NCBI GenBank assembly: GCA_023957215.1
Contig: JAMLHH010000015.1
Location: 1-64,000 of the forward strand
Source: Chitinophagales bacterium
Lineage (GTDB): Bacteria > Bacteroidota > Bacteroidia > Chitinophagales > JADIYW01
Length of the DNA: 64,000 nucleotides
Direction: 5' to 3'
Part shown: positions 1-12,109 of the stretch, piece by piece
Numbering within the stretch: position 1 is the first letter of the stretch
How the letters are laid out: each line of letters begins with the position of its first letter
Notes under the pieces: model-generated
The model's database searches: none
The model's input: only the letters and a program-made list of their open reading frames with translations
What the model was told of the DNA's origin: nothing
Program-made: the position numbers and the translations under genes

Positions 1-36
1 AAGCCCTGAAGGTTTCTCCTCTCAGGGCTTTTTTCT
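1..36 (+). terminator. Rho-independent terminator
   Basis: A 9-bp perfect stem (AAGCCCTGA / TCAGGGCTT) with a 12-nt loop is followed by a T run. On the plus strand it would end a gene lying before the window. It may also serve the minus-strand operon that ends near 63, but the sequence beyond position 1 is not visible. Confidence 0.7.
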
Positions 37-62
37 ATTCGGCATAATGTTGTAGGCAGTTT

Positions 63-182
63 TTATTTGTTCGTCAGCCAAAAGTAGATTGCAAGTCCGA
101 GCATTATTATTGTCTTAATGTTGCACCAAGTCAGTTTAAATTTTGGGGTTACTCGTTTACAACTTTCTGTTTTGTAGTCCAT
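63..182 (-). CDS. small membrane protein, 39 aa
   Basis: This is an open frame with an ATG 7 nt after the stop of the preceding DUF6789-like gene, the spacing of a translationally coupled gene. The product would be 39 residues: a charged N-terminus with two Cys and two Trp, then one hydrophobic C-terminal segment suited to a single membrane span. The frame can be extended upstream to 257, but that part only overlaps the neighbouring gene in another frame, so I prefer the short form. I do not recognise the family. Its reality rests on position and composition. Confidence 0.4.
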   Translation of the reverse strand: MDYKTESCKRVTPKFKLTWCNIKTIIMLGLAIYFWLTNK

Positions 183-189
183 AATTTTC

Positions 190-639
190 TTACTTTGTTG
201 CACAAGAATTGTCAGCACAATAAGTGTTTCCAACAGTTTTTGCCACTGCCATTCCAAAAATAATGTGTCCCATTAAACTACCTATCATTGTCAGCATCAT
301 TGAGCCTTCCATTTTAGGCATTGGCATCATTGCTCCCATAATTGCCATCATAATTTGAGCAAAGACAAACGCAATAATTCCAAAAACTGCACCTTTAAGC
401 CAAACATTACTGATTTTGTGTTTGAAAATGCACAAATAGGTGTAAGCAAATGCAAACATTATTCCTATCATAAAGTGCATAACCCAACCAACAAAAACGG
501 GCATTCCTAACATTCCCGAAAGCATTTCGGGTGGTGACATTTTTGGTATTCCCATCATTGGGGCAACCATCATTACTACGGTCATTATGGCTGTGCCTAT
601 AATTCCCGCTAAAATTGATTTCTGAATTTTACTGTTCAT
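190..639 (-). CDS. DUF6789-like multi-pass membrane protein
   Basis: A 149-residue, very hydrophobic, Met-rich protein with about four predicted membrane spans and short loops. The glycine-rich first helix (residues 8-30) and the overall pattern resemble the DUF6789 integral membrane family. The short C-terminal tail carries two Cys. It is the fourth gene of a minus-strand run: sigma factor, YceI, thioredoxin, this gene, then a 39-aa small protein. It starts 10 nt after the thioredoxin stop. No enzymatic motif is visible. The co-transcription suggests a role in envelope or redox stress, which is inference only. Confidence 0.6.
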   Translation of the reverse strand: MNSKIQKSILAGIIGTAIMTVVMMVAPMMGIPKMSPPEMLSGMLGMPVFVGWVMHFMIGIMFAFAYTYLCIFKHKISNVWLKGAVFGIIAFVFAQIMMAIMGAMMPMPKMEGSMMLTMIGSLMGHIIFGMAVAKTVGNTYCADNSCATK

Positions 640-649
640 TTCTTTGATT

Positions 650-1096
650 TTAATTGTTTGTAAATTTTTGTCCTAATTCAATGAGTTCGTTTGGGTTATG
701 ATAACCACCTGATATTCCTACCACTTTTCCATTTCCGTCTATGAAAAGTAATGACGGAAAACTGCGTAGTCCATACTTTTGCATTAGCATTGCACCATCT
801 CCTTGTTCTCCGTCAAAAGCTACGTTTACAAAATTTTGGTTGTAATAAATTCCAACTTCTGTATTTGAAAAAGTCTTTGCTTTTAACTTTTTACAAGGTC
901 CGCACCAAGTCGCATAAATATCCAAGAAAATCAACTTGTTTTCTTTTTTTGCAAGTTGTAAGGCTTCTTCCCAAGTTCCTTTGTGGAACTGTATGCCTTC
1001 TTTTGTGTCGGCTTTGAAATCCACTTTTGGATTTGCAAAGGCATAAACAGCCACCAATACAATGGCTGAAAATGCTATGAATAATAAGTTTTTCAT
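650..1096 (-). CDS. thioredoxin-family protein, exported
   Basis: A 148-residue protein with an N-terminal signal or anchor segment (residues 1-21) and one thioredoxin fold. The redox motif WCGPCKK follows the strand LIFLDIYAT, and the cis-Pro loop appears as RSFPSLLFI. The pattern is that of periplasmic thiol-disulfide oxidoreductases (DsbD-gamma or thioredoxin-like). Both active-site cysteines are present, so it should be catalytically competent. Its start overlaps the stop of the upstream yceI by one base, which indicates one transcript. With YceI and an ECF sigma factor it forms a plausible envelope-stress cassette. Confidence 0.85.
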   Translation of the reverse strand: MKNLLFIAFSAIVLVAVYAFANPKVDFKADTKEGIQFHKGTWEEALQLAKKENKLIFLDIYATWCGPCKKLKAKTFSNTEVGIYYNQNFVNVAFDGEQGDGAMLMQKYGLRSFPSLLFIDGNGKVVGISGGYHNPNELIELGQKFTNN

Positions 1097-1698
1097 TATT
1101 TCATTCTGTTTAATTCCATTGGAATATGGATACGAACTTCGTCACCAACCACCATTGTTGCAGCCCAACTTCCTGTGCCTACTCCAAAGTCTGTTCTGTT
1201 GATAGTGGTGTCAATTACTACACCTAAAATGATTGTCCCTTTCATCATTGGGTGTTCCATTTCACCCGTAATTTTCATTGGCAAAATCACATCTTTCGTT
1301 TTGTCCTTAATAGTCAGTTTTCCGTAAACTAAAAACTCCTTGTCTGACTTCTTTTCAATTTTTGTAGATTTGAAAGTCATATTAGGAAAAGATTTGGCAT
1401 CAAAGAAGTCTGCTGATTGCAAATGTTTATCACGTTTGCTGTCGTCTGTGCTTACGGTTTTTACAGAAATTGTAAAATCTGCTTTGCTGGATTGTAGATT
1501 GTTTGGGTCAAACTGAAAGTTGCCGTCAAAAGTCTTGAACTTTCCTGTTACTGCCGAAAAGAAGTGATTGATTGAGAAGTTTACAGAAGTGTGCGACTTG
1601 TCTAACTTCCACATTGTAGCGTTTTGTGCGTTTGCTGTGAACACACCCATTACAGTTATAAGAACTGCGAAACCAAATTTTTTGATTGTTGAAACCAT
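1096..1698 (-). CDS. YceI family periplasmic protein
   Basis: A 200-residue protein with a signal peptide ending near ANA (about residue 24), followed by one YceI-like lipocalin domain. Diagnostic features are the opening WKLDKSHTSVNFSINHFF and the central block with DDSKRDKHLQSADFFD. YceI proteins bind isoprenoid or other lipid ligands in a beta-barrel and are often induced by stress. The gene follows the ECF sigma factor after a 95-bp gap that carries the palindrome GTCGCCAATATTGACGAC. It overlaps the thioredoxin gene downstream by one base. The family call is solid; the ligand is unknown. Confidence 0.9.
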   Translation of the reverse strand: MVSTIKKFGFAVLITVMGVFTANAQNATMWKLDKSHTSVNFSINHFFSAVTGKFKTFDGNFQFDPNNLQSSKADFTISVKTVSTDDSKRDKHLQSADFFDAKSFPNMTFKSTKIEKKSDKEFLVYGKLTIKDKTKDVILPMKITGEMEHPMMKGTIILGVVIDTTINRTDFGVGTGSWAATMVVGDEVRIHIPMELNRMK

Positions 1699-1722
1699 TT
1701 TGATAAATTTTTAAATGTTATG

Positions 1723-1740
1723 GTCGCCAATATTGACGAC
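1723..1740. promoter_or_regulatory. palindromic operator-like site before yceI
   Basis: The 18-bp sequence GTCGCCAATATTGACGAC is palindromic apart from one mismatched pair and lies 25 bp upstream of the yceI start. Its core AATATTGACG recurs in inverted form upstream of the sigma-factor gene (2408-2444), so both promoters of the operon may be read by the same regulator. No regulator gene is visible next to it. Confidence 0.4.
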
Positions 1741-1793
1741 TTGAACCTTTATACCAATGGTTTCAAAAAATCACCCAAGCAACTGAAATATTT

Positions 1794-2345
1794 TTATTTT
1801 TTTTCTTTTTGCTCGTCTTCTTCCTTTACTTTTCTGATTTGCTCAACGCACTTATGTTTCTGATTTTGAGCGTTATGTTTTGTTGAGTAGCCGTATTCTT
1901 GCTGTATTTGCTCAATGGCTTTTTCTTTGAAAAAAATATCGTGAATTAGTCCTTTGCAATGCTCAGTGATTTGGTGCATATAGTTTTGCAACTTGTCCCA
2001 ATAGTTTTTTTCTTGTTCTATGGCAAGGTTAATGTCGTCAAAAAATTTATTGTCGTGAAGTTCGGTAAACTCAACTTCTCTGTAAGAAGTTCTCAACCGT
2101 TTTAACCACAAATTTTTAGCGATAGCCATAATGTAGGTCTTGATAGAAGCGGTAAGTTGGAAATTGTCTTGTCGTAATTTCTCTACCAAAACAAGCATTG
2201 TGTCCTGAAATACGTCTTCGGCATCATCTGTCCGTCCGTTATTGTTAGTTACGAAACGGTTTACCATTCCGAAATACTCTTTGTAGAGTTGTCCGAAAGC
2301 GTTGTTGTTTTCGCCTTTCAAGTCGTCTATTACTTCGGTTGTCAT
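1794..2345 (-). CDS. RNA polymerase ECF sigma factor
   Basis: A 183-residue sigma-70 family protein of ECF length. Region 2 is clear: FGQLYKEYFGMVNRFV near residue 17, then DAEDVFQDTMLVLVEKL and the helix IKTYIMAIAKNLWLKRLR. Region 4 is weaker: IEQIQQEYGYSTKHNAQNQKHKC, a helix-turn-helix with the usual linker, and a lysine-rich tail. No anti-sigma gene is adjacent. It leads a minus-strand run with yceI, a thioredoxin and a membrane protein, so it probably controls their expression. The ATG at 2345 gives a normal N-terminus for the family. Confidence 0.85.
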   Translation of the reverse strand: MTTEVIDDLKGENNNAFGQLYKEYFGMVNRFVTNNNGRTDDAEDVFQDTMLVLVEKLRQDNFQLTASIKTYIMAIAKNLWLKRLRTSYREVEFTELHDNKFFDDINLAIEQEKNYWDKLQNYMHQITEHCKGLIHDIFFKEKAIEQIQQEYGYSTKHNAQNQKHKCVEQIRKVKEEDEQKEKK

Positions 2346-2407
2346 TCTGTTATTTTTCTGTCTGCTTGTTCTTGGTTAGCGGTTCGGTAAAATTGCCTAC
2401 AACATCC

Positions 2408-2444
2408 ATATTGACGCCATTACTCCATTCTATTGCGTCAATAT
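2408..2444. promoter_or_regulatory. inverted repeat upstream of sigma gene
   Basis: Perfect 10-bp arms ATATTGACGC and GCGTCAATAT are separated by 17 bp, 63 bp upstream of the sigma-factor ATG. The arm matches the core of the palindrome before yceI. It could be an operator, or half of a recombination-site hairpin, because a GTTGTAGGC box follows directly (2394-2405). Confidence 0.4.
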
Positions 2445-2468
2445 TGCTTATGTGTGAAGATATTTTTG

Positions 2469-3377
2469 TCAATCTTTTTTATTTTTATCAAATATAAAAG
2501 ATTCATATATACTATCCAAGGGACTTTTTAAAGTTTTGTTGTTGATACTCATAATTTTGGTGTAGATTTCGGTAGTCTTGATGTTGGAATGCCCAAGAGC
2601 TTGTTGAATATATCGGATGTTGATTCCTTTTTGCATCAGATGGGTGGCGAAGCTGTGTCTTAAAGTGTGGGGCGTACTCCAAGGATTACTTCCGGTTTCT
2701 TTTACTGCTGTCCTAAATATATTTTGAATACTTCGAATGGAATATTGTCCGCCATCCTGACCTTCAAACAACCAGTAGGATGGTTTATAGGCTTTGTAAT
2801 ATTCTCTCAGCAAATCCAGAACATAAGGACTTAACACCGTGTGCCGGTCTTTTTTACCTTTGCTGTCTTTGATGAAAATAAAGCCTTCCTTACTATGTAT
2901 GTCTATGATTCTCAATCTTGTTGCCTCACTTATTCGTAGTCCGGCACTATAAATTAAATGCAAAATAACTCTGTGTTTTATATTTTTGGGTTGGTTAATA
3001 ATAGCGGCTACTTCTTCTATGCTTAGCACATTTGGAAGATTCAAGCTTTTTTTGGGTCGTGTGATTTGATAATATTCTCTCGGTTTTCCTAATGTATGTT
3101 CGTAGTAGGATTTTATTGCATTGATAATTGTATTTTGATTCGTTTCTCTGATTTTATATTTTGTTATCAAATGATATAGATAACCTTCGATTTGTTCTTT
3201 GGTTATCTCGCTATATTCCATATAATCAAAGTATTTAAAGAACTGTTTTAAAGCACCTTGATATGTCAGTATCGTTTTGCGTATATGACTTGTGGCGGTT
3301 TTCAAAGCACTTTCTTGTCCGCTTGCAACAAACTTACTTAAATGCACAAAACTTGAATTTACCACTTCACCCGCCAT
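2469..3377 (-). pseudogene. tyrosine integrase, 3' part of split gene
   Basis: A 302-residue open frame holding the core-binding and catalytic domains of a Bacteroidota tyrosine recombinase. The catalytic set is complete: R148 in YSAGLRIS, K173 in DSKGKKD, H237 and R240 in HTLRHSF, H263 in LGHS, and nucleophile Y272 in EIYT. The KSPLD ending resembles integron integrases and their relatives. Residues 1-35 are not integrase-like: they are encoded by the recombination-site end of an inserted cassette. Residue 36 onward (ILTYQGALKQFF) continues in frame from Thr132 of the upstream fragment at 4152-4562. Intact, the protein would have been about 399 residues. The fragment may still be translated, but it lacks the N-terminal arm. 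Confidence 0.8.
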
Positions 3378-3401
3378 AAGTTATATACGCTGTTATGCAA
3401 C
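3279..3401 (-). repeat. attC-like imperfect palindrome
   Basis: Arms at 3279-3300 and 3369-3390 are inverted copies with 3 mismatches in 22, separated by 68 nt. The outer box GTTATGCAAC lies at 3392-3401, and its partner GTTGCATAAC lies at 4158-4167, at the far end of the cassette. That is where the terminal bases of an attC fall after linear integration. The length and the paired inner and outer boxes match integron attC sites. Confidence 0.65.
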
Positions 3402-3812
3402 GGCTTTCTTTTTAATTATCTCATTTCCAAAGATTTTCAAGATTAACGGACTAAAAATCAGTTCCGGTAAAATTGCTGGCAAATAGAAAAACAAGAACAT
3501 AATGTCAATCGGTAAATGCCAAAATGCCCAAATAAAATACGAACTTATGATAGTCAGGATTCTTGTCAGGATAATAACTGAAATGCTTGTCAGCAAAGAC
3601 TTTTTGTTCTTGTAAAGCACATATCCTTGAAAAATCGCTCCCAATAAAAACGTTATCGACCCTAAAAATAGAATCAGAACTAAAAGTTCAATTATTGGTG
3701 TCGGTTCTTGTTCCATTACTTGTCGATAGTCAAATTTGCTATGTAACTTTCGAGTTCTATTGTTCTTTTTCTTGTCAGGTCGAGTTTTGTCTGGGCTGCA
3801 ACAGGAATCCAC
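3393..3812 (-). CDS. small multi-pass membrane protein (cassette)
   Basis: A 139-residue frame. The first ~30 residues overlap the upstream LprI-like gene and are charged and Cys-rich, so a start at the internal Met 33 (about 3716) is more likely and gives about 107 residues. The remainder has three to four hydrophobic segments (ELLVLILFLGSITFLLG, ISVIILTRILTIISSYFIW, DIMFLFFYLPAILPELIF). I do not recognise the family. It is the second gene of the inserted cassette and stops just before the recombination site, as cassette genes usually do. Confidence 0.6.
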   Translation of the reverse strand: MDSCCSPDKTRPDKKKNNRTRKLHSKFDYRQVMEQEPTPIIELLVLILFLGSITFLLGAIFQGYVLYKNKKSLLTSISVIILTRILTIISSYFIWAFWHLPIDIMFLFFYLPAILPELIFSPLILKIFGNEIIKKKAVA

Positions 3813-4135
3813 ATTGTTCCTTGCATATCGTAGTAGAGTTGGTTTGAAAATTCAATCTCTTTGTCTCGATATTCAATCCATTCTCTTTGAGCGATTTTTA
3901 GTTTTTCTTTTTGCTCAGTTGTCAGCAAGTCCAATAGCTCTTTGTATGCTTTGTTTAATTCAGTGTCCCATTTTTCTGTTGCCGTACTCACACAGTCGGT
4001 CATTCCTTTAGTTGTGTAGTTTTCACTTGAGTTAAGACAATCTTGAAGTTCCTTGTCAATTTGGTATGTGCTGTCGACCTGTCCGTAAGTGATTACAGAG
4101 AAAATGGTCAATATCATTGTCAGCACGATTTTCAT
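3716..4135 (-). CDS. LprI/DUF1311 family secreted protein (cassette)
   Basis: A 139-residue protein with a signal peptide (MKIVLTMILTIFSVITYGQ) and one DUF1311 (lysozyme-inhibitor LprI-like) domain. The family pattern shows as DCLNSSENYTTKGMTDCV, then the Trp-rich centre EKWDTELNKAYKELL and REWIEYRDKE. Members are periplasmic or secreted; one mycobacterial member inhibits lysozyme, and most are uncharacterised. It is the first gene after the 5' junction of the inserted cassette, starting 31 bp from the junction. It ends where the membrane-protein gene begins. The family call is good; function here is unknown. Confidence 0.75.
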   Translation of the reverse strand: MKIVLTMILTIFSVITYGQVDSTYQIDKELQDCLNSSENYTTKGMTDCVSTATEKWDTELNKAYKELLDLLTTEQKEKLKIAQREWIEYRDKEIEFSNQLYYDMQGTMWIPVAAQTKLDLTRKRTIELESYIANLTIDK

Positions 4136-4151
4136 TGTTTACGTTGTCTTT

Positions 4152-4562
4152 TTAGCTGTTGCATAACGTAGAAGCTTTAAGACCTTTGAGAACTAGTTTC
4201 TGCTCATTTTGTGCCAATGCTTCATCCATTTTTTGACTGCAAACGATTTTAGGTGTTGGGGGAGGATTAATCTGATTTTGAATACTTAATTTACCTTCAA
4301 ATAAGGTTTTGACTTTTTTAATATTTTCCTCTGTGTTTATAAGACTCCAAAGTTTTTGTTGAGGATGATAAAATGAAGAATTTATTTTTTTGAATACCTC
4401 TCTTTCTTCTTTGAAAAAGTAGGGGATAAACACCTTAAATCGAGATGCTTTTATTTGCGGTATAAATAAAATTATTTTTTCTTGAGAGTTCTTTTCCATA
4501 AGAAAATTTATTGTTACTATAAATATATGTAAAAAAATTACAGTTATAAAGTTGATTATCAA
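4152..4562 (-). pseudogene. tyrosine integrase, 5' part of split gene
   Basis: A 136-codon frame. From Met22 it shows the N-terminal extension typical of Bacteroidota integrases (FIPYFFKEEREVF, then QKLWSLINTEENIKKVKTLFEGK), followed by the start of the SAM-like core-binding domain (NEQKLVLKGLKAST). The frame is intact to Thr132 (codon 4169-4167). The last four codons and the stop come from the inserted cassette. Joining Thr132 to residue 36 of the downstream fragment gives an uninterrupted integrase. The true start is probably Met22 rather than Met1, because residues 1-21 are hydrophobic and unlike the family. Confidence 0.75.
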
Positions 4563-4570
4563 ATATAATT

Positions 4571-4614
4571 GTTCTTATCCGTTAAGAACGATTAACTGTA
4601 AATTACTATATTTG
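4571..4614 (+). promoter_or_regulatory. promoter with inverted repeat, zinc-ribbon gene
   Basis: A -7 box TATATTTG at 4607-4614 fits the Bacteroidota consensus TAnnTTTG and lies 29 bp upstream of the ATG at 4643. Just before it is a perfect 7-bp inverted repeat GTTCTTA / TAAGAAC (4571-4589). It could be an operator shared with the divergent integrase gene that starts at or below 4562. Confidence 0.5.
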
Positions 4615-4642
4615 ACTTAATTATACTTTATATTACTATAAA

Positions 4643-4990
4643 ATGAAAAATTGTAAAGTTTGTGAAAAGCCAATAAAAGGGAGGTCAGATAAAATTTTTT
4701 GTTCCATAGAATGTAAAAATTATTATCACAAAAAGCTCCGATTTGCTACAAAAATGGCTGCCAAACAAATTGATGGTTATTTAAAACGCAACTATAAAAT
4801 TCTGTTGGAACTTTTAGGTGGCAATAAAATCCAAGTAAAAGTATATCGCAATCAATTATCCCAAAAAGGATTCAGATTTCAATATCATACACATTTTTAT
4901 ATTAACTCTAAGAACAAAATGTATCATTATCTTTATGATTTGGCTTGGATGGAGTTTTCTGATGATGAAGTATTGATAATTAGACATTAG
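4643..4990 (+). CDS. zinc-ribbon protein of unknown function
   Basis: A 115-residue protein that starts with a Cys4 zinc ribbon: CKVC near residue 4 and FCSIEC near residue 19, followed by KNYYHKK. The C-terminal ~70 residues are mixed basic and aromatic (YLKRNYKILLELL, GFRFQYHTHFYIN) with no catalytic motif I can name. Similar small zinc-ribbon proteins are frequent in Bacteroidota accessory regions. It diverges from the split integrase gene and shares its upstream region, so it may have travelled with that element. Function unknown. Confidence 0.7.
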   Translation: MKNCKVCEKPIKGRSDKIFCSIECKNYYHKKLRFATKMAAKQIDGYLKRNYKILLELLGGNKIQVKVYRNQLSQKGFRFQYHTHFYINSKNKMYHYLYDLAWMEFSDDEVLIIRH

Positions 4991-5187
4991 TTTTATTTAT
5001 AGGGAATGATAAGAATGCTATCACTTAATTTAGCGAATGCGATGGTCTATCGTCTGAGACCTGTCGTCACTTTTGTCAGCAAAAAACAGATGATGCTCCA
5101 CTCTGCCACTCACGCAGCTTAAATGCAGAAATGTTTTCTATTTCAATAACTGTGATTTAAAAAATTCATTTTTCTCTCAGTAAAAAC

Positions 5188-6984
5188 TTAAAGGATACTG
5201 AGCAAGTCATCTTTAGATAGATTTTTAAAAGAATTTTTGTCGGTATGAATTAAATCCTCTACGAGTTTTAATTTCTTTTCTTGTAGTTTCATAATTTTCT
5301 CTTCGATAGAATCTGGAACTATTAATCTAATGGCTATGACATGGTTTTTTTGTCCTATTCTGTAAGCTCTATCTATAGCTTGATTTTCTACAGCCGGATT
5401 CCACCATGGATCGATAATGAAGACGTATTCTGCTTCTGTGAGATTTAGTCCGGTACCACCGGCTTTAAGGCTGATTAAAAATACACGCACTTCGTCGTTC
5501 TCTTGAAATAGATTGACCTGTTCTTCTCTATTTCTGGTTTTCCCGGTCAAGTATGCATATTTAATATTCTCTTGTTCTAGTTTTTCTTTAATCAAATCCA
5601 GCATACCTACAAATTGTGAAAAGACCAACACCTTATGTTCGTTTTTTAATTTATCGATTTGTTGCATGAGTTCTTCGATTTTGGAAGATTGATTCCCGTA
5701 GTATTCTTGATCAGATAGCAATGCCGGTGAATTACAAATTTGTCTAAGTTTTGTCAAGCCTTGTAATACATGCAAAGATGATTTGTGTAGCTCTTCTTCT
5801 GAAATACCTAATAAATACTTTTGAAATTCGGCTTTATATAAATCATAAACCTTTCTCTGCTGAGCTCCCATTTCACAGGTAATTATCATTTCTGTCTTAT
5901 CAGGTAATTCTTTTACTACTTGTTTTTTTGTTCGTCTCAAAATAAATGGATGTACTTTTTGTTGTAACTCTTTAGCTATGATTTCGTCTTGAAACTTATC
6001 TATGGGAGTGGCATAATCTTCTTTGAATTTCTTCATTGAGCCTAACAAACCCGGCATTACAAAAGAAAGTTGTGCATATAAATCAAAGGTGGAGTTCTCG
6101 ACAGGCGTACCTGTCGCTGCTATTCTCTGGTTGGCTTTTAATAGTCTTACGGATTTATATCGCTGAGAGTTTGGATTTTTGATAGCCTGCGACTCATCCA
6201 AAACTATAATATTGAAGTGAAATTTTTTAAGCTCTTCAATATCCGAAATGAGAGTCCCGTAAGTAGTAAGTATCAAATCATGTTTCTTAAGTTCGTTGTT
6301 ATCTATGTTTCTATTTGAACCATAAAGTACAAGATAGTTGATGTGTGGAGCGAATTTTTCAAGTTCTTTTTGCCAGTTAAACAATAGAGAAGTAGGCACT
6401 ACGACTAAATTTGTTTTTCCCTTTTGATAACCGGCTAAGAAATAAGCTATAATCTGTATTGTTTTCCCCAATCCCATATCATCGGCGAGAATCCCACCAA
6501 AATTAAAATCATTTAAAAAACTTAACCAGTTAAGTCCTTCTTTTTGATAATCTCTCAAAGTGGCTTTCAATTTCTTGGGAATTTTAATGTTTTCTATAGA
6601 TTGAAAGTTGTTGAGCTTTTCTTTCAAGTGCATAATTTCAATTTTAGCATCATTATCTATAACTTCTTCATTAAACAGTGTGTCAATTAAAGTGAAATTA
6701 CTTTTATGAGTTCTGACACTATTATCTTTAACTTCTCCGACTCTGAAATATTTCCGAAATTTTTCTATCCATTCTTTAGGAAGTATTCCCTTCGTGCCAT
6801 CTCCTAACTGTACATATCTTGTCTTGTTAAGAATAGCCTTTTGTACATCTTTTAAATTTATTTTTTGATCTCCGAAAGAGATGTTTGTTTCAATGTCAAA
6901 CCAGTCTATACCCGATTTGACCTGAGTAGATATTATAGCTTTATTGGTATTATAATTTTCTTTATTGATTTCTTTAAATCCCAT
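5188..6984 (-). pseudogene. SNF2-family helicase, C-terminal half
   Basis: 598 codons holding the full SNF2 ATPase. It begins with the tail of a DUF3670/SNF2-associated segment (GIDWFDIETNISFGDQ). The motifs are Walker A-like ADDMGLGKTIQ, motif II LDESQAIKNP, motif III ATGTPVENS, then helicase C with VFSQFVGMLD, KAGGTGLNLTEA and motif VI QAIDRAYRIGQ. It is in the same register as the SWIM-domain half upstream (7096-8901), but 111 nt with several stops separate them. That linker is coding in another frame. The catalytic half alone has every motif, and an ATG at 6984 could start it, so a residual product is possible. Confidence 0.8.
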
Positions 6985-7095
6985 AATGATATAGCCGTTT
7001 TTTTGCCAATCATTGAAGGCTTTTAAGAACCATTCATCTTCTATAAAATCTTCTTATTTAAGTAAAAAAAGTTTGTTTTAGGTAGCTCATTAAAA

Positions 7096-8901
7096 TTAGG
7101 ATGAGATGTTTGGAGGTGTTTTAAATAATTTTTCTTTTTCTGTATTTCTTTGAATAGAATAAGTATCTCCTTTGTCATCTAAATAAAAAATTGACTCTTT
7201 AGATAAAACAGCTATTTCTTTGTTTTTATATGCTATAACAGGTGTGATAGTTATCCAATCTTCCACCTCTGATAGGTAAATTAAATACTTATCTATTTGA
7301 TTTAGCTGATTTTTACTAATCAACTGTTTTGTAGCCTTTTGAACATAACTATACTTGATATTGACTAATGACTCCAGCGGGTCTAAAACTTGATTTTTAA
7401 AAGCAGGAAAGTTGGATTCCATGATAAGAACTTTATAGTCAAAGTTTTCAAAAAAATCCAGCAATTCTTGAATGACATTGTTTTCAATAAAATACAAGGT
7501 GTCATTATTTATAAAGAGATTGTTTTTCAAATCTAACTTAGTGGCATCTATTTTTTTCTCTTCAATAAATAACTTTAGCTGAAGTTCGTAGAGAGTTCCT
7601 TTTTTATTAACCTCTATAACAATATCTAAGCCGGCTATTTTTAGTGAAATGGGTTTTATTTTTCTTGGAGTAATAGTTTCGTAGAAAGAATCACCGTGCA
7701 TAATATATGCTTCGAGTCCTAATGGATTTTTGAAGATTTCTTTAATTTGTTTTTTTATAAATGATGATTGATCTACTTTTTGATGATATGGTTTATAATT
7801 ATCCTCATCATTAGTGTAAAAAGAGGCATAAAACTGAATTTCCTCTTTATTAGAAAGAAGACTAATTTTCTCCCCAATATTGAGAGTATTAATTGGTGAC
7901 TTTATTTCCCCTTTTTGAGTAATAGAAGACATCATGATTTTAAAAGTATATTCTTCATAAGCATCTATCACTACTATAAACTCTTTACTGCCTATTGCTT
8001 TAGACCTTACTTGTGGAAATTCAAAAGGTTTAAAAAGGTTGTCTTTTAGTAAATTCAAATTTTCATCAGTTGTTGAAAAAAAGTGGTTGTTTGTATCTAA
8101 AGTGATATTGCTAAAATCATCTATGTTAAATTGGAAGAAGTTTTCTATCTCTTGATCATTTAAATCGTCTAACTTATTTACTTTGGCAATTTTTCTAAGT
8201 GCTTGGTTTCTTTTTTTCTGATCAAAACCATATTGGATAATTTTGCTTTCAAATACTTCTTGTAAAAGATACGATAAGTGCTTACAAATTTTGTTGTTTT
8301 TAGACTTGCAAGAACAAGTTAAAATACAATTCTCATGGTCTTGTTCAATTGTAGTTTTATAATTTCTTCTATCATAAAAGTCCTCAATATCAGCCTCTAC
8401 TTTATTCAATTTTAATGGTTGATAAGATGGATAAAAATCTCTATCTCTATAAGAGACGGAAATACTTTTAAGCTCCTGAATACTTAAATCTTTTAACTGT
8501 TTGTTTTTAATCAAAAAACGTCCAAGAGCTTCTCTTTCTACTTCTAATAAAGGTAAGATGATAGCATCTTCTACTTTGTTTTCAGCTTTTTTAAAATGAG
8601 GAGAATTGCTATGCATTTTTTTATCTGCTTCTACAAGAACTCTAACTATGTGTTTGCAATATCCTTCAAAATCATACGCACAGGTGCAGTGTGCAGATAC
8701 CACTCTATCTATATTGTACTCAATATTAATTTGATACATACTGGTTCCCCAGACAATGGCCGAGATAGAGTCTTGGTCAAGTTTTAAGCTGATTAGCTGA
8801 CTGTCATTATATCGACTTTGTGTTTTAAAGCTCGTGTTGTGTGTAATAAAATCTTCAAAGGGTTTAAAAAATAACTCCATAAAGTAAATATATGCACACA
8901 A
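7096..8901 (-). pseudogene. SWIM zinc-finger half of SNF2 helicase
   Basis: 601 codons forming the N-terminal half of a Bacteroidota SWIM-SNF2 protein. A SWIM finger reads CTCAYDFEGYCKH, and a second degenerate one reads CSCKSKNNKICKH. The long middle region is unconserved. The start is probably Met8 (MELFFKPF) at 8880. The frame closes after PPNISS. In the next frame the same DNA encodes NYLKHLQTSHPNFNEL and FFYLNK, the residues expected at this point, and then returns to the first frame at EDFIEDEWFLK. A +1 event near 7129-7139 (an A-rich run) and a -1 event near 7050-7056 account for this. The intact protein would be about 1236 residues. Confidence 0.75.
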
Positions 8902-8968
8902 ATTATAGGGTTACATATTAATGATGAAGAATAATTATACACTTATTTTTAAAATTGTTGAAAAATGT

Positions 8969-9643
8969 TTATATCAAACTCACACCGTTCAAATCGGTGG
9001 TCAATATATCTGACATATAATCGAAGAAAGGGCGGATACTTTGAAAGTATTCATCAACTTGAGTGGCAAAATGCTCTGATAATACTTCTTCGTCAGTGAA
9101 ATAATGACAAAATCTCCATTGTTTGAGATTGATTAAATCTATATCGGGATGTTGATTATTAAAGCCGGATGGCGCATTGATGAGGATTTCGCCAAAGATT
9201 TTATCCCAATGGTTTTCTAATTCTTTATCTGATAAAATATCCCGTATTTCGTTGGAAGAAGTTTCCCATTCTTTGCGGACACGTTTCAAATCACTACTAT
9301 TAGGATTCCAAAAACCTACTTCGATAAAAGATTGGTCGTCAGGCTCGATATGAATATAATAACCACCTCTTAACGTCGGTTTTCTCCGCATGTATTCCGC
9401 AGCTATATATCTTTTGTAAGGAGTCTTGTCTTTGGAAAACCGAAGATCGCGATAAATGCGATACATTCTCCATTTTTCTATATCATCGTGTTGACCCAAT
9501 AAATCGGCTATTTCAGCGAAGACTTGTTTTACTTCGGTTGCTAAGGCTTTATATGTGAGTTTGTGCTTTTCAAACCATTCTCTATTATTATTGACTCTTA
9601 TTTCCCGTAGAAAATCAAAAGCCTCTTGCGGTATTTTTGACAT
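8969..9643 (-). CDS. DUF2461 domain-containing protein
   Basis: A 224-residue protein matching DUF2461 (TIGR02453) across its whole length: FLREIRVNNNREWFEKHK at the N-terminus, RIYRDLRFSKDKTPYK in the first third, and GGYYIHIEPD followed by GFWNP. These blocks define the family, which is widespread in Bacteroidota and has no established biochemical function. Length is normal. It is monocistronic, between the helicase gene and pgsA. I see no signal peptide or membrane segment, so it is probably cytoplasmic. Confidence 0.9.
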   Translation of the reverse strand: MSKIPQEAFDFLREIRVNNNREWFEKHKLTYKALATEVKQVFAEIADLLGQHDDIEKWRMYRIYRDLRFSKDKTPYKRYIAAEYMRRKPTLRGGYYIHIEPDDQSFIEVGFWNPNSSDLKRVRKEWETSSNEIRDILSDKELENHWDKIFGEILINAPSGFNNQHPDIDLINLKQWRFCHYFTDEEVLSEHFATQVDEYFQSIRPFFDYMSDILTTDLNGVSLI

Positions 9644-9844
9644 AAAGTACTAAGGTAAACGAAAATGTACAAAACCGAAAATGGGAACTCCATTTTGGCG
9701 TGAAAGAGTACAAATAGGAAATTTTTGTAATAGAAATAGTTAAAAGAATGTATAAAACGAGATGGTCTAAACTTAAATCCAAAATAAAATGATAAGTTTG
9801 TACGTAATTGCTTTTTAGAGCGAATTTCAAAATAGCTTGTCTTA

Positions 9845-10426
9845 GTGAAACATATACCCAATATATTAAGTGCTTTGCGTATTCTGATGGTGCCGGCTTT
9901 TCTTTATTTCTACTGGCAAGATGATATCTCTCTGATAGTTTTGGGCTTTATCATCTTTTTGATGGCTACTGTCACAGATTTCTTGGATGGATATATAGCA
10001 AGGAAATATAATTATCAGTCTGCATTAGGAGCTTTTTTAGACCCTTTGGCTGATAAATTTTTGACTTTTAGTGCTTTTATTTCACTGCCACTCATCAATA
10101 ACGAGCTATTTCCTTGGTGGGCAATTTGCATCATACTTTTCAGAGATATCTTTATTACACTTTTGAGGGTATGGGCAAAATATAAAAATGCTACCATGAA
10201 GACAAGAATTATCGGTAAGGTGAAAACGGTAGTGCAGTTTGTCTTTTTATACTTTGTTTTGTTTTTGGGTGCATTTAAAGGCTATCCGAGCTGGTTGGGG
10301 GTATTGGCAAAAGATATATTGAGCAATACTGAAATTATCTTTTCTTTGACCGTCTTTGTGGTTGCATTTACGGTGTATAGCGGTATAGAATATACTATTA
10401 AAAACAGCCGGCTTTTTAGCTTTTGA
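9845..10426 (+). CDS. pgsA: CDP-diacylglycerol-glycerol-3-phosphate phosphatidyltransferase
   Basis: A 193-residue integral membrane enzyme that makes phosphatidylglycerophosphate, the committed step to phosphatidylglycerol. The CDP-alcohol phosphotransferase signature D-G-x2-A-R-x8-G-x3-D-x3-D is complete: DGYIARKYNYQSALGAFLD then PLAD. The N-terminus KHIPNILSALRILMVP is the standard family opening and supports the GTG start at 9845. There are four or five membrane spans. It is followed one base after its stop by pgpA, which dephosphorylates its product, so the two form one operon. Confidence 0.93.
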   Translation: MKHIPNILSALRILMVPAFLYFYWQDDISLIVLGFIIFLMATVTDFLDGYIARKYNYQSALGAFLDPLADKFLTFSAFISLPLINNELFPWWAICIILFRDIFITLLRVWAKYKNATMKTRIIGKVKTVVQFVFLYFVLFLGAFKGYPSWLGVLAKDILSNTEIIFSLTVFVVAFTVYSGIEYTIKNSRLFSF

Positions 10427-10427
10427 T

Positions 10428-10901
10428 ATGAAAAGTTTTAAGTTATGGCTTTCTGCCGGATTGGGAGCGGGCTTTCTTCCGAAATCTCCGGGGACATGGG
10501 GAAGTTTAGTATCTTTAATTCCTATCTATTTCATTCTGATTTCTGCACATCCTTTTACCTATTTGTCTGTATTTATTATACTCAGTTGTGTCATTAATCT
10601 TTGGGTGGCAGATGTGAGTGAAGATACTTGGGGCAAAGATCCCTCTAAAATGGTAATAGATGAATTTGCCGGACAAGGAGTCAGTTTTTTGGCTGTGGCA
10701 TATTGGGGAGTGGTATTGCCATTACCGGTCGCGTTATTGTTGGGTTTTATATTTTTCAGATTTTTTGATATTCTCAAACCTTTGGGGATTAATCGGCTTC
10801 AAAGTTTTAAAGGTGGCTTCGGCATTCTCTTGGATGACTTATTGGCAGGAGTGTACGCAATGGCTTGTCTGCAAGTACTTATTTTGACCGCCGGAATTTG
10901 A
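10428..10901 (+). CDS. pgpA: phosphatidylglycerophosphatase A
   Basis: A 157-residue membrane protein of the PgpA family, which converts phosphatidylglycerophosphate to phosphatidylglycerol. The family motifs are present: GAGFLPKSPGTWGSL at the N-terminus, DEFAGQG with the acidic residues needed for Mg2+ in the middle, and GGFGILLDDLLAGVYA near the C-terminus. The ATG follows the pgsA stop by one base. Together they supply consecutive steps of one pathway, which confirms both calls. Confidence 0.93.
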   Translation: MKSFKLWLSAGLGAGFLPKSPGTWGSLVSLIPIYFILISAHPFTYLSVFIILSCVINLWVADVSEDTWGKDPSKMVIDEFAGQGVSFLAVAYWGVVLPLPVALLLGFIFFRFFDILKPLGINRLQSFKGGFGILLDDLLAGVYAMACLQVLILTAGI

Positions 10902-10919
10902 TTCACTTATAGCCATATA

Positions 10920-11684
10920 TTACAAACTGATAAATCTCACTTCTTTATGATAAAACTTTCTTGTCCCGTCATCGGTCTTTATGGTGAGCTGCCCGTCTTT
11001 TTCCACGTTTTGTATGCTTCCTTTGAAAGAAGAGAGAGAATCAGAGAACAATAGTTCTTCATTTAACCCTAAGAGTACTTGTAGATAACGTTGATGTATT
11101 TTTTCGTATTGACCACTTTTCAAAAACAGATAATTTTTTTCAAGTATTTCTAAAAGCCTGATGCAGGTTTCTTCCACATTGCCTTGATAGCCGTTTAATA
11201 TCATAGAACTTGCCGTTGTCAGTCCCGGGAAATTTTCTTGGTTGACATTGAGACCGATTCCGATGATAGACGTTAGCACAGTAGAGCCTTGAATACTGTT
11301 TTCTATTAAAATGCCACACACTTTTTTTCGGTCTATCATAACATCATTGGGCCATTTGATTTCAATTTTTTTATCTTTTACTTTTTCGCATAAAAGTTCA
11401 TAGACGGAAAGGCAAGTAGCCATACTTAATAAAAACTGTTCCGTAACTTTTAAAAAACCGGTGAGGAACAAGACCGAAAAGGTAAGATTCTTTTCAGCTT
11501 CCGCCTGCCAAGAATTGCCGGACTGACCTTTACCTTTAGATTGTTTGTCTGCCATTATGACAAGTCCGTCAATTGGCTTGTTATTTGACAACCAGTCTTT
11601 GAGAAAAGTATTGGTGGATGAAATCTCTTTTAACTGTATTAGAAACTTTCCTGTAAATAATGTGTTGATTGTAGAAGGATTCAA
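10920..11684 (-). CDS. birA: biotin-[acetyl-CoA-carboxylase] ligase
   Basis: A 254-residue biotin protein ligase of the class I type without an N-terminal DNA-binding domain. It activates biotin with ATP and attaches it to carboxylase carrier domains. Visible motifs are EISSTNTFLKDW, the biotinyl-AMP loop KGKGQSGNSW (GRGRRG type), IKWPNDVMI with the catalytic Lys, and KVCGILIE. The C-terminal ~45-residue SH3-like domain is present. It is convergent with pgpA and divergent from rsfS, with which it shares a 47-bp intergenic region. The carboxylase subunit at 15585-17213 belongs to a biotin-dependent enzyme that would depend on this ligase. Confidence 0.93.
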   Translation of the reverse strand: MNPSTINTLFTGKFLIQLKEISSTNTFLKDWLSNNKPIDGLVIMADKQSKGKGQSGNSWQAEAEKNLTFSVLFLTGFLKVTEQFLLSMATCLSVYELLCEKVKDKKIEIKWPNDVMIDRKKVCGILIENSIQGSTVLTSIIGIGLNVNQENFPGLTTASSMILNGYQGNVEETCIRLLEILEKNYLFLKSGQYEKIHQRYLQVLLGLNEELLFSDSLSSFKGSIQNVEKDGQLTIKTDDGTRKFYHKEVRFISL

Positions 11685-11731
11685 TTTGATTTTTAGATAA
11701 AAATAATTTTAAACAAGAATAAATAAAAAAT

Positions 11732-12109
11732 TTGAGAGAAGCAAAAGCTATAAAGGTGGATGATGATGAAATTTTGAGCGAGATGATCATCAAAATGATT
11801 CAAGATAAAGGAGGGGAGAATATTATTAGATTAAATCTTTCCGAAATAAGTGATGCAGTTGTGGATTATTTCATAATTTGTCATGCATATTCTAAAACAC
11901 ATGTTAAATCAATAGGAGATTTTGTAGAAGTAAAAGTAAAAGAAATGTTTAAATCGCTAAATTTGCATGTGGAGGGACGAAATAATGGAGAATGGGTGCT
12001 GATAGGTGCCGGTAATATTTTGGTGCATATCTTTCTTGAAGAAAAAAGAGAATATTATCAATTGGAAGACCTTTGGAGTGATGCTGAGATTAAAAAATAC
12101 GATAACTAA
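11732..12109 (+). CDS. rsfS: ribosomal silencing factor RsfS
   Basis: A 125-residue RsfS/YbeB/Iojap protein, which binds uL14 and prevents premature subunit joining. The family blocks are DYFIICHAYSKTHVKSIGDFVE, EGRNNGEWVLIGAGNILVHIFLEE and YQLEDLWSDAE. The usual D in VVDYFIIC is there. The frame starts with TTG at 11732, and no better ATG lies upstream. It is followed 23 bp later by ftsH, an order common in Bacteroidota. Confidence 0.93.
   Translation: MREAKAIKVDDDEILSEMIIKMIQDKGGENIIRLNLSEISDAVVDYFIICHAYSKTHVKSIGDFVEVKVKEMFKSLNLHVEGRNNGEWVLIGAGNILVHIFLEEKREYYQLEDLWSDAEIKKYDN

Follow-up and report, generated by a model that had tools for sequence, protein, structure and literature searches.

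A probable Bacteroidota-type integron lacking the I2 helix, with its integrase gene split by its own kind of cassette

The window analysed here, the whole stretch of 64,000 nucleotides, very probably begins with a Bacteroidota-type, I2-less, "reversed" integron whose integrase gene was split by a cassette of the integron's own kind. The system works like an integron, yet it is not of the IntI family. On the best reading of the DNA, the split gene would itself be the integrase of an integron, a point absent from an earlier note on this region, and the anatomy of the locus suggests that enzymes of this class are active in cassette recombination. The features on which this reading rests are collected in Table 1.

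Table 1. Features of the split integrase locus, with positions in the window
Feature	Positions	Strand	Description
Split integrase gene, whole	4499 -> 2469	-	Tyrosine recombinase, 894 bp interrupting
Integrase, 5' part	4167..4499	-	HARP-like N-terminal domain, linker, start of core-binding domain
Left boundary, R' box GTTATGCAAC	4158..4167	-	Recombination point G(4167)^TT(4166)
Inserted integron-type cassette	3273..4166	-	894 bp; complete; two genes plus attC (circular form)
Cassette gene 1	3716..4135	-	LprI-family secreted protein; 139 aa; Pfam E 1.9e-21
Cassette gene 2	3393..3716	-	Small membrane protein; reading frame open from GTG 3812; 107 aa when counted from ATG 3716
attC of the cassette	3273..3401	-	R'' GTTGCATAAC at 3401-3392; stem AGCGTATATAACTTATGGCGG / CCGCCACAAGTCATATACGC; right end ...AAAACG
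Right junction	3272..3273	-	Cassette G(3273) ^ target A(3272)
Target, G^AT site			CTTCTACG^ATACTGAC when empty; falls in integrase codons 111-112
Integrase, 3' part	2469..3272	-	Core-binding and catalytic domains
Chimeric ORF	2469..3377	-	302 aa; starts at ATG 3377 inside attC and continues in frame through the integrase 3' part; without the N-terminal domain
attI-like region	2404..2468	-	Directly past the integrase stop; leads to ...GTCAATATGGATG^TT; position and form match relatives
Probable first cassette	49..2403	-	Boxes GTTGTAGGCA (2403-2394) and TGCCTACAAC (58-49)
Genes of the probable first cassette			Named by inspection: ECF-type sigma factor, YceI-like, thioredoxin-like, membrane protein

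The split integrase gene and its inserted cassette

When positions 3273-4166 were excised in silico, ...LKAST and ILTYQG... were joined in an open frame of 378 codons from ATG 4499. The earlier note had proposed this insertion into a tyrosine integrase gene and its in-frame excision, and both were borne out at the junctions; its length of about 399 residues had counted codons 5' of the likely start. As that note also expected, uninterrupted homologues matched the joined sequence: the closest one, in another genome of the order (G119), matched in one piece over residues 4-368 with 57% identity at the protein level, other intact homologues were 36-48% identical, and the alignments were gap-free at the junction. 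No empty site was found at near-identical DNA, the G119 protein being the nearest intact homologue. The catalytic residues R224, K249, H313, R316, H339, and Y348 (numbering of the joined protein) were invariant in the joined protein and 10 relatives, and the joined product is a tyrosine recombinase with the R-K-H-R-H-Y catalytic set of an integron integrase.

In the sequence as it stands, the 5' frame of the gene reads four codons into the cassette and then stops (LCNS*). Other stop codons and frameshifts are absent from the 5' and 3' fragments, and therefore either the insertion was recent or the pieces are still under selection. That the block is a native part of the locus, or that the gene is a plain pseudogene, was ruled out, since the homologues are uninterrupted and the fragments carry no further damage; nor was the LprI gene present in two genomes of the same genus (G001 and G002), where a native block had been named as a possible refutation. 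A search of this assembly for homologues found no intact copy of the split integrase. The full-length enzyme thus appears to be lost in this strain, and an N-terminally truncated form could conceivably be made from the ATG within attC, because this codon opens a 302-aa frame with the entire catalytic part; a single-sequence fold of this chimeric product was uninformative (pLDDT 44). With no intact integrase in the assembly, cassette mobility in this strain would be past, or would proceed via the truncated enzyme or via another source. A palindrome, GTTCTTAtccgtTAAGAAC, lies upstream of the integrase start at 4571-4589 and is a possible operator.

The boundaries of the insert could be placed to the base. 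On the minus strand, the left junction reads CTTCTACG^TTATGCAAC and the right junction CGCAAAACG^ATACTGAC, and circularising the cassette in silico restored AAAACG^TTATGCAAC. The sequence expected at the empty site before insertion is CTTCTACGATACTGAC, and that expected at the junction of the circular cassette is AAAACGTTATGCAAC. The target is a G^WT-like site outside attI and attC, as in attG-type secondary insertions, and the exact G^TT left and G^AT right junctions uphold the proposal of an integron-type cassette inserted at a secondary G^AT target under the GWT rule. The boxes divided between the two insert ends were likewise found where they had been placed: the 10-bp box GTTATGCAAC has three copies in the 2.88-Mb genome, two of them at the ends of the insert. 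The third copy is a chance occurrence inside a transposase gene. Of the proposed cargo, the LprI-like protein and the membrane protein were both recovered, and the start of the second gene was revised to what is probably ATG 3716, overlapping the LprI stop codon. This second gene had no family match, and LprI homologues in 8 other genomes of the order had no flanking attC within the short loci fetched.

On the 3' side of the integrase stop the window reads ...GTCAATATGGATG^TTGTAGGCA. Positions 2404-2468 would be attI, and 49-2403 would be the first, four-gene cassette of the array, whose boxes form the only such pair within these 2.5 kb. The array ends at the contig end, and the first cassette is therefore without a full attC. 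Elsewhere in the same genome, 7 further attC matches were found on five other contigs, and on contig 42 a cassette of ~2.6 kb has matching boxes. On that contig (L080, G000; 2843-5974) an attC is overlapped or directly preceded by an HsdR-like type I restriction gene, and therefore defence genes may be cassette cargo.

attC sites and cassette arrays beside related integrases

In its circular form, the attC of the inserted cassette measures 138 nt including the cassette's own R', which is exactly the usual length among relatives, and it carries the 10-bp R''/R' pair GTTGCATAAC / GTTATGCAAC. Nine sites of other genomes aligned with it along the full 138 nt, and in the alignment with other genomes' sites compensatory changes were seen in 19 of the 25 consensus pairs. 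When the window site was left out and a covariance model was made from 11 sites of other genomes, the model detected the window site at 55.9 bits (E 1.4e-11; 12 kb searched), and this was the sole match at E <= 0.1 across the 64-kb window; the attC-like 3' hairpin of the earlier note was thus found where it had been placed. Rfam gave no match in positions 1-12000. Folding is more stable for the bottom strand of the site (z -5.3), the window's + strand, than for the top strand (z -3.1), and this preference agrees with the requirement of the known integron reaction. The site therefore presents what is looked for in an attC, namely an imperfect hairpin at the 3' end of the cassette, paired R''/R' and L''/L' boxes, and strand-asymmetric folding. 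In the alignments A1 and A2 of these sites, columns 22-25 and their partners contain two frequent A.C mismatches beside an AA/TT step of the stem, which become G.T wobbles on the bottom strand and are a possible strand-choice signal replacing the classical extrahelical bases.

Many intact homologues of the integrase lie with their 3' side within 30-500 bp of a contig end, and repeats were therefore suspected there. Past their stop codons, a short, often hairpin-rich stretch leads to ...AAG/GAG/GGAYG and then to ^TTRNNNGCAA, followed by small ORFs, and the conserved ...AAG/GAG/GGAYG^TT junction 3' of the integrase stop in many relatives occupies the position of an attI. A search of the arrays for R'' side by side with its exact complement failed, since the R' that adjoins R'' is that of the following cassette; cassettes were detected by pairing the start box of each with the complement at its end. 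By this means, chains of 9 (G112), 6 (G148), and 5 (G144) cassettes were found directly 3' of homologous integrases, a 10-cassette chain starting ~8 kb farther on was found in G100, and several other genomes had 2-3 cassettes, while chains of such length were absent from reversed-sequence controls. Tandem cassettes in the same orientation thus form arrays of 2-10 in relatives, and the window shows one partial cassette only. One locus (L027, 1117-2590 and 1-125) has a repeat between its cassettes: a non-coding segment of 336 bp that carries inverted boxes of its own and is possibly a duplicated gene-less cassette.

The attC sites follow the integrase in side and strand. When 80 loci from named genomes, chosen by integrase similarity alone, were scanned with the attC model, 33 of 34 sites were on the integrase strand and downstream of the gene (one antisense duplicate excluded), as were 54 of the 57 matches in the first set of loci. 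The hosts of the integrase-linked loci include Algoriphagus, Flavobacterium, Winogradskyella, Zunongwangia, Seonamhaeicola, and Cyclobacterium. No attC was found in the loci of the less related integrases in the same 80-locus fetch, which were mostly proteobacterial. Within the order, such sites were present in 93 of 150 genomes, and their association with the integrase class was moderate (54 of 72 genomes with the class vs 39 of 78 without it; p 0.002). Because of these 39 genomes, solo arrays or divergent or missed integrases must exist; genomes G110, G115, and G125 are examples of solo arrays or missed integrases.

The integrase class compared with IntI, and alternative explanations

The integrase was placed outside the IntI family because the feature that defines the family, the I2 helix near patch III, was looked for and is lacking in this class. 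The 3' part of the integrase scored 186 bits in two stretches against the NCBIfam model TIGR02249, below its cut-off of 265 bits; in members of the class the matches stop at ~181 and resume at ~238, skipping positions ~182-237, and the alignment to IntI4 (2A3V) is likewise broken at 182-240. KG..R and HxLRH are spaced 64-69 residues apart in every measurable class member vs 106 in measurable true IntIs. In the tree, IntI formed a separate clade (100/100) with the integrase class outside it, the deeper branching being unsettled. The suspicion in the earlier note that the integrase might be non-classical was well founded in these respects, and in the lack of an IntI in the genome itself. The two groups have the C-terminal SPLD-type motif in common, and the nearest solved relatives by sequence were archaeal XerA (4A8E, 5HXY) and IntI4. 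For a structural model of the Algoriphagus homologue (pLDDT 82), the best Foldseek match was the integron integrase IntI4 (2A3V), and a second structure aligner placed XerA, IntI4, and XerH nearest. Three loci of 8.0-9.1 kb each (L115, L118, and L119), from MAGs named Spirochaetota, Firmicutes, and Undinarchaeales, encode I2-less integrases whose N-terminal domain is HARP-like and whose end is of the SPLD type, and therefore the class may extend past Bacteroidota and, as the MAGs are named, into Archaea.

The extra N-terminal domain consists of the first 60-70 residues, is strand-rich, and has an invariant W. In a Pfam search, the sole match of the window domain was HARP (PF07443) at 17.1 bits (E 0.0042; gathering threshold 25 bits), the best E among relatives was 5.7e-6, and DUF5710 matched 7 of 14. 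The top PDB sequence match was the HARP domain of SMARCAL1 (4O66, E 0.058); a structure search with the whole model had no HARP structure among the matches listed, which were filled by integrases. The likeness to SMARCAL1 is thus a weak sequence similarity, and the HARP domain is joined there to an SNF2 ATPase and here to a recombinase. On visual inspection of W...K.W..P motifs, some integrases (L013, of 546 aa, L012, and L092) apparently have two or three tandem HARP-like repeats ahead of the recombinase. Forks and ss/dsDNA junctions are bound by HARP proteins, whose binding to plain ssDNA or dsDNA is not stable (PMC4035279). We hypothesise that the HARP-like domain may perform hairpin recognition in intact relatives, as I2 does in IntI.

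It is unlikely that the cassette was inserted at an attG-type site by a classical IntI, whether of a mobile integron or of an earlier host, and that the split gene was a bystander. Secondary-site insertion by IntI has been documented (attG; Loot 2024, cited in PMC12901181), and in some genomes of other classes of the phylum IntI and attC of this type occur together. However, an IntI above the curated cut-off was missing from the genome itself, where a weak match on contig C53 proved to be an unrelated integrase tail, and from 149 of the 150 genomes of the order; the single case (G030:C40:3592-4530, L075; 422 bits) is in a genome that is without these attC sites and has a partial I2-less homologue. 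Phylum-wide, IntI was found in 105 of 395 genomes, and among those listed the G030 case is the only one in this bacterial class. Furthermore, the window attC is of the type found downstream of this integrase class and matches the sites of its neighbours over its full length, whereas the IntI-type R-box consensus (RYYYAAC / GTTRRRY) fits only 1 of 35 relatives' sites, the window R' being GTTATGC.

Still less probable is that the integrase class consists of ordinary recombinases, Xer-like or phage-like, and that the arrays are moved by something else, such as XerC/D or an unseen enzyme. The closeness of the catalytic part to archaeal XerA and the many genomes with attC and no gene of the integrase class would fit this explanation, but it leaves aside the immediate 3' linkage to a conserved attI-like junction across many families, the near-perfect strand-and-side rule for attC, and the kinship with IntI in the SPLD-type motif and the best Foldseek match. 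Archaeal XerA / NF040815 provides the closest sequence matches for the core-binding and catalytic domains, and unlike the class described here it has no cassette arrays and no HARP-like domain. XerA acts in chromosome dimer resolution. That the cassette was misjoined into the integrase through repeats during assembly or binning is very improbable: the assembly has 70 contigs and the contig start lies 2.5 kb off in a probable repeat array, but misassembly would not yield junctions that are base-exact for the known reaction and leave an in-frame empty site, and the box pair occurs nowhere else in the genome.

Proposed mechanism, known systems and significance

Under the preferred reading, an I2-less integron split by its own kind of cassette, a Bacteroidota-type integron would begin in the window. 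The integrase, a tyrosine recombinase, would belong to the Xer/IntI superfamily, lack the I2 insert, and carry an extra HARP-like N-terminal domain, and comparison with relatives indicates that its gene is read toward attI and the array, both of which would lie just past its 3' end. Recombination between the G^AT secondary site of the integrase gene and a circular cassette would have proceeded via the bottom strand of attC in its folded form. The junctions were read directly; the strand is presumed, as is the recombining enzyme, probably an integrase of the same I2-less class. The insertion would have left R' at one end and the remaining attC at the other, and would have parted the N-terminal domain from the catalytic part.

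This system resembles the IntI integrons (mobile classes 1-3, Vibrio, and other chromosomal ones) in its tyrosine recombinase, its attI beside the gene, its codirectional cassettes, its imperfect-hairpin attC with R and L boxes, and insertion at G^TT. It differs from them in an integrase that lacks I2, falls outside the IntI clade, and has an extra N-terminal domain, in R' boxes of the form GTTRNNNGC rather than GTTRRRY, and in an integrase gene that is read toward the array. The chromosomal integrons of Treponema have the same codirectional layout, but they use IntI, whereas the window-type integrase is without the IntI-specific insert (PMC3607928). Secondary-site cassette insertion, including attG, was already known (PMC12901181, PMC10127599). 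As in the attG-type insertions (Loot et al. 2024, cited in PMC12901181), a single cassette sits at a G^WT-like site outside an array; unlike in those, the target here is the integrase gene itself and the enzyme is apparently not IntI.

The additional domain specific to IntI (the I2 helix) is a required profile in IntegronFinder (PMC9668308). It has been described as necessary for activity, its deletion abolishing that of IntI1, is found in no other protein, and is held to have turned a double-strand recombinase into an integron integrase (PMC7790495). In Bacteroidetes proper, IntegronFinder 2.0 reported only In0 elements, and then one Salinibacter integron (PMC9024848). Searches of the open-licence literature turned up no account of integrons without I2, and priority for the class is uncertain.

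The chances are about even that these loci represent a second, widespread class of Bacteroidia integrons, in which I2-less hairpin recombination proceeds via the HARP-like domain and of which the window integrase is a member disabled by off-target insertion. The many natural cassette arrays tied to I2-less integrases make the claim that I2 is required directly testable, and they may reveal how integrons began, or that they had two separate origins. The window provides a naturally occurring case of a cassette splitting an integron-type integrase. If this reading is true, surveys based on the IntI domain, by which Bacteroidetes have almost no integrons (PMC9024848), overlook a gene-capture system whose attC sites are present in most of the sampled genomes of the order.
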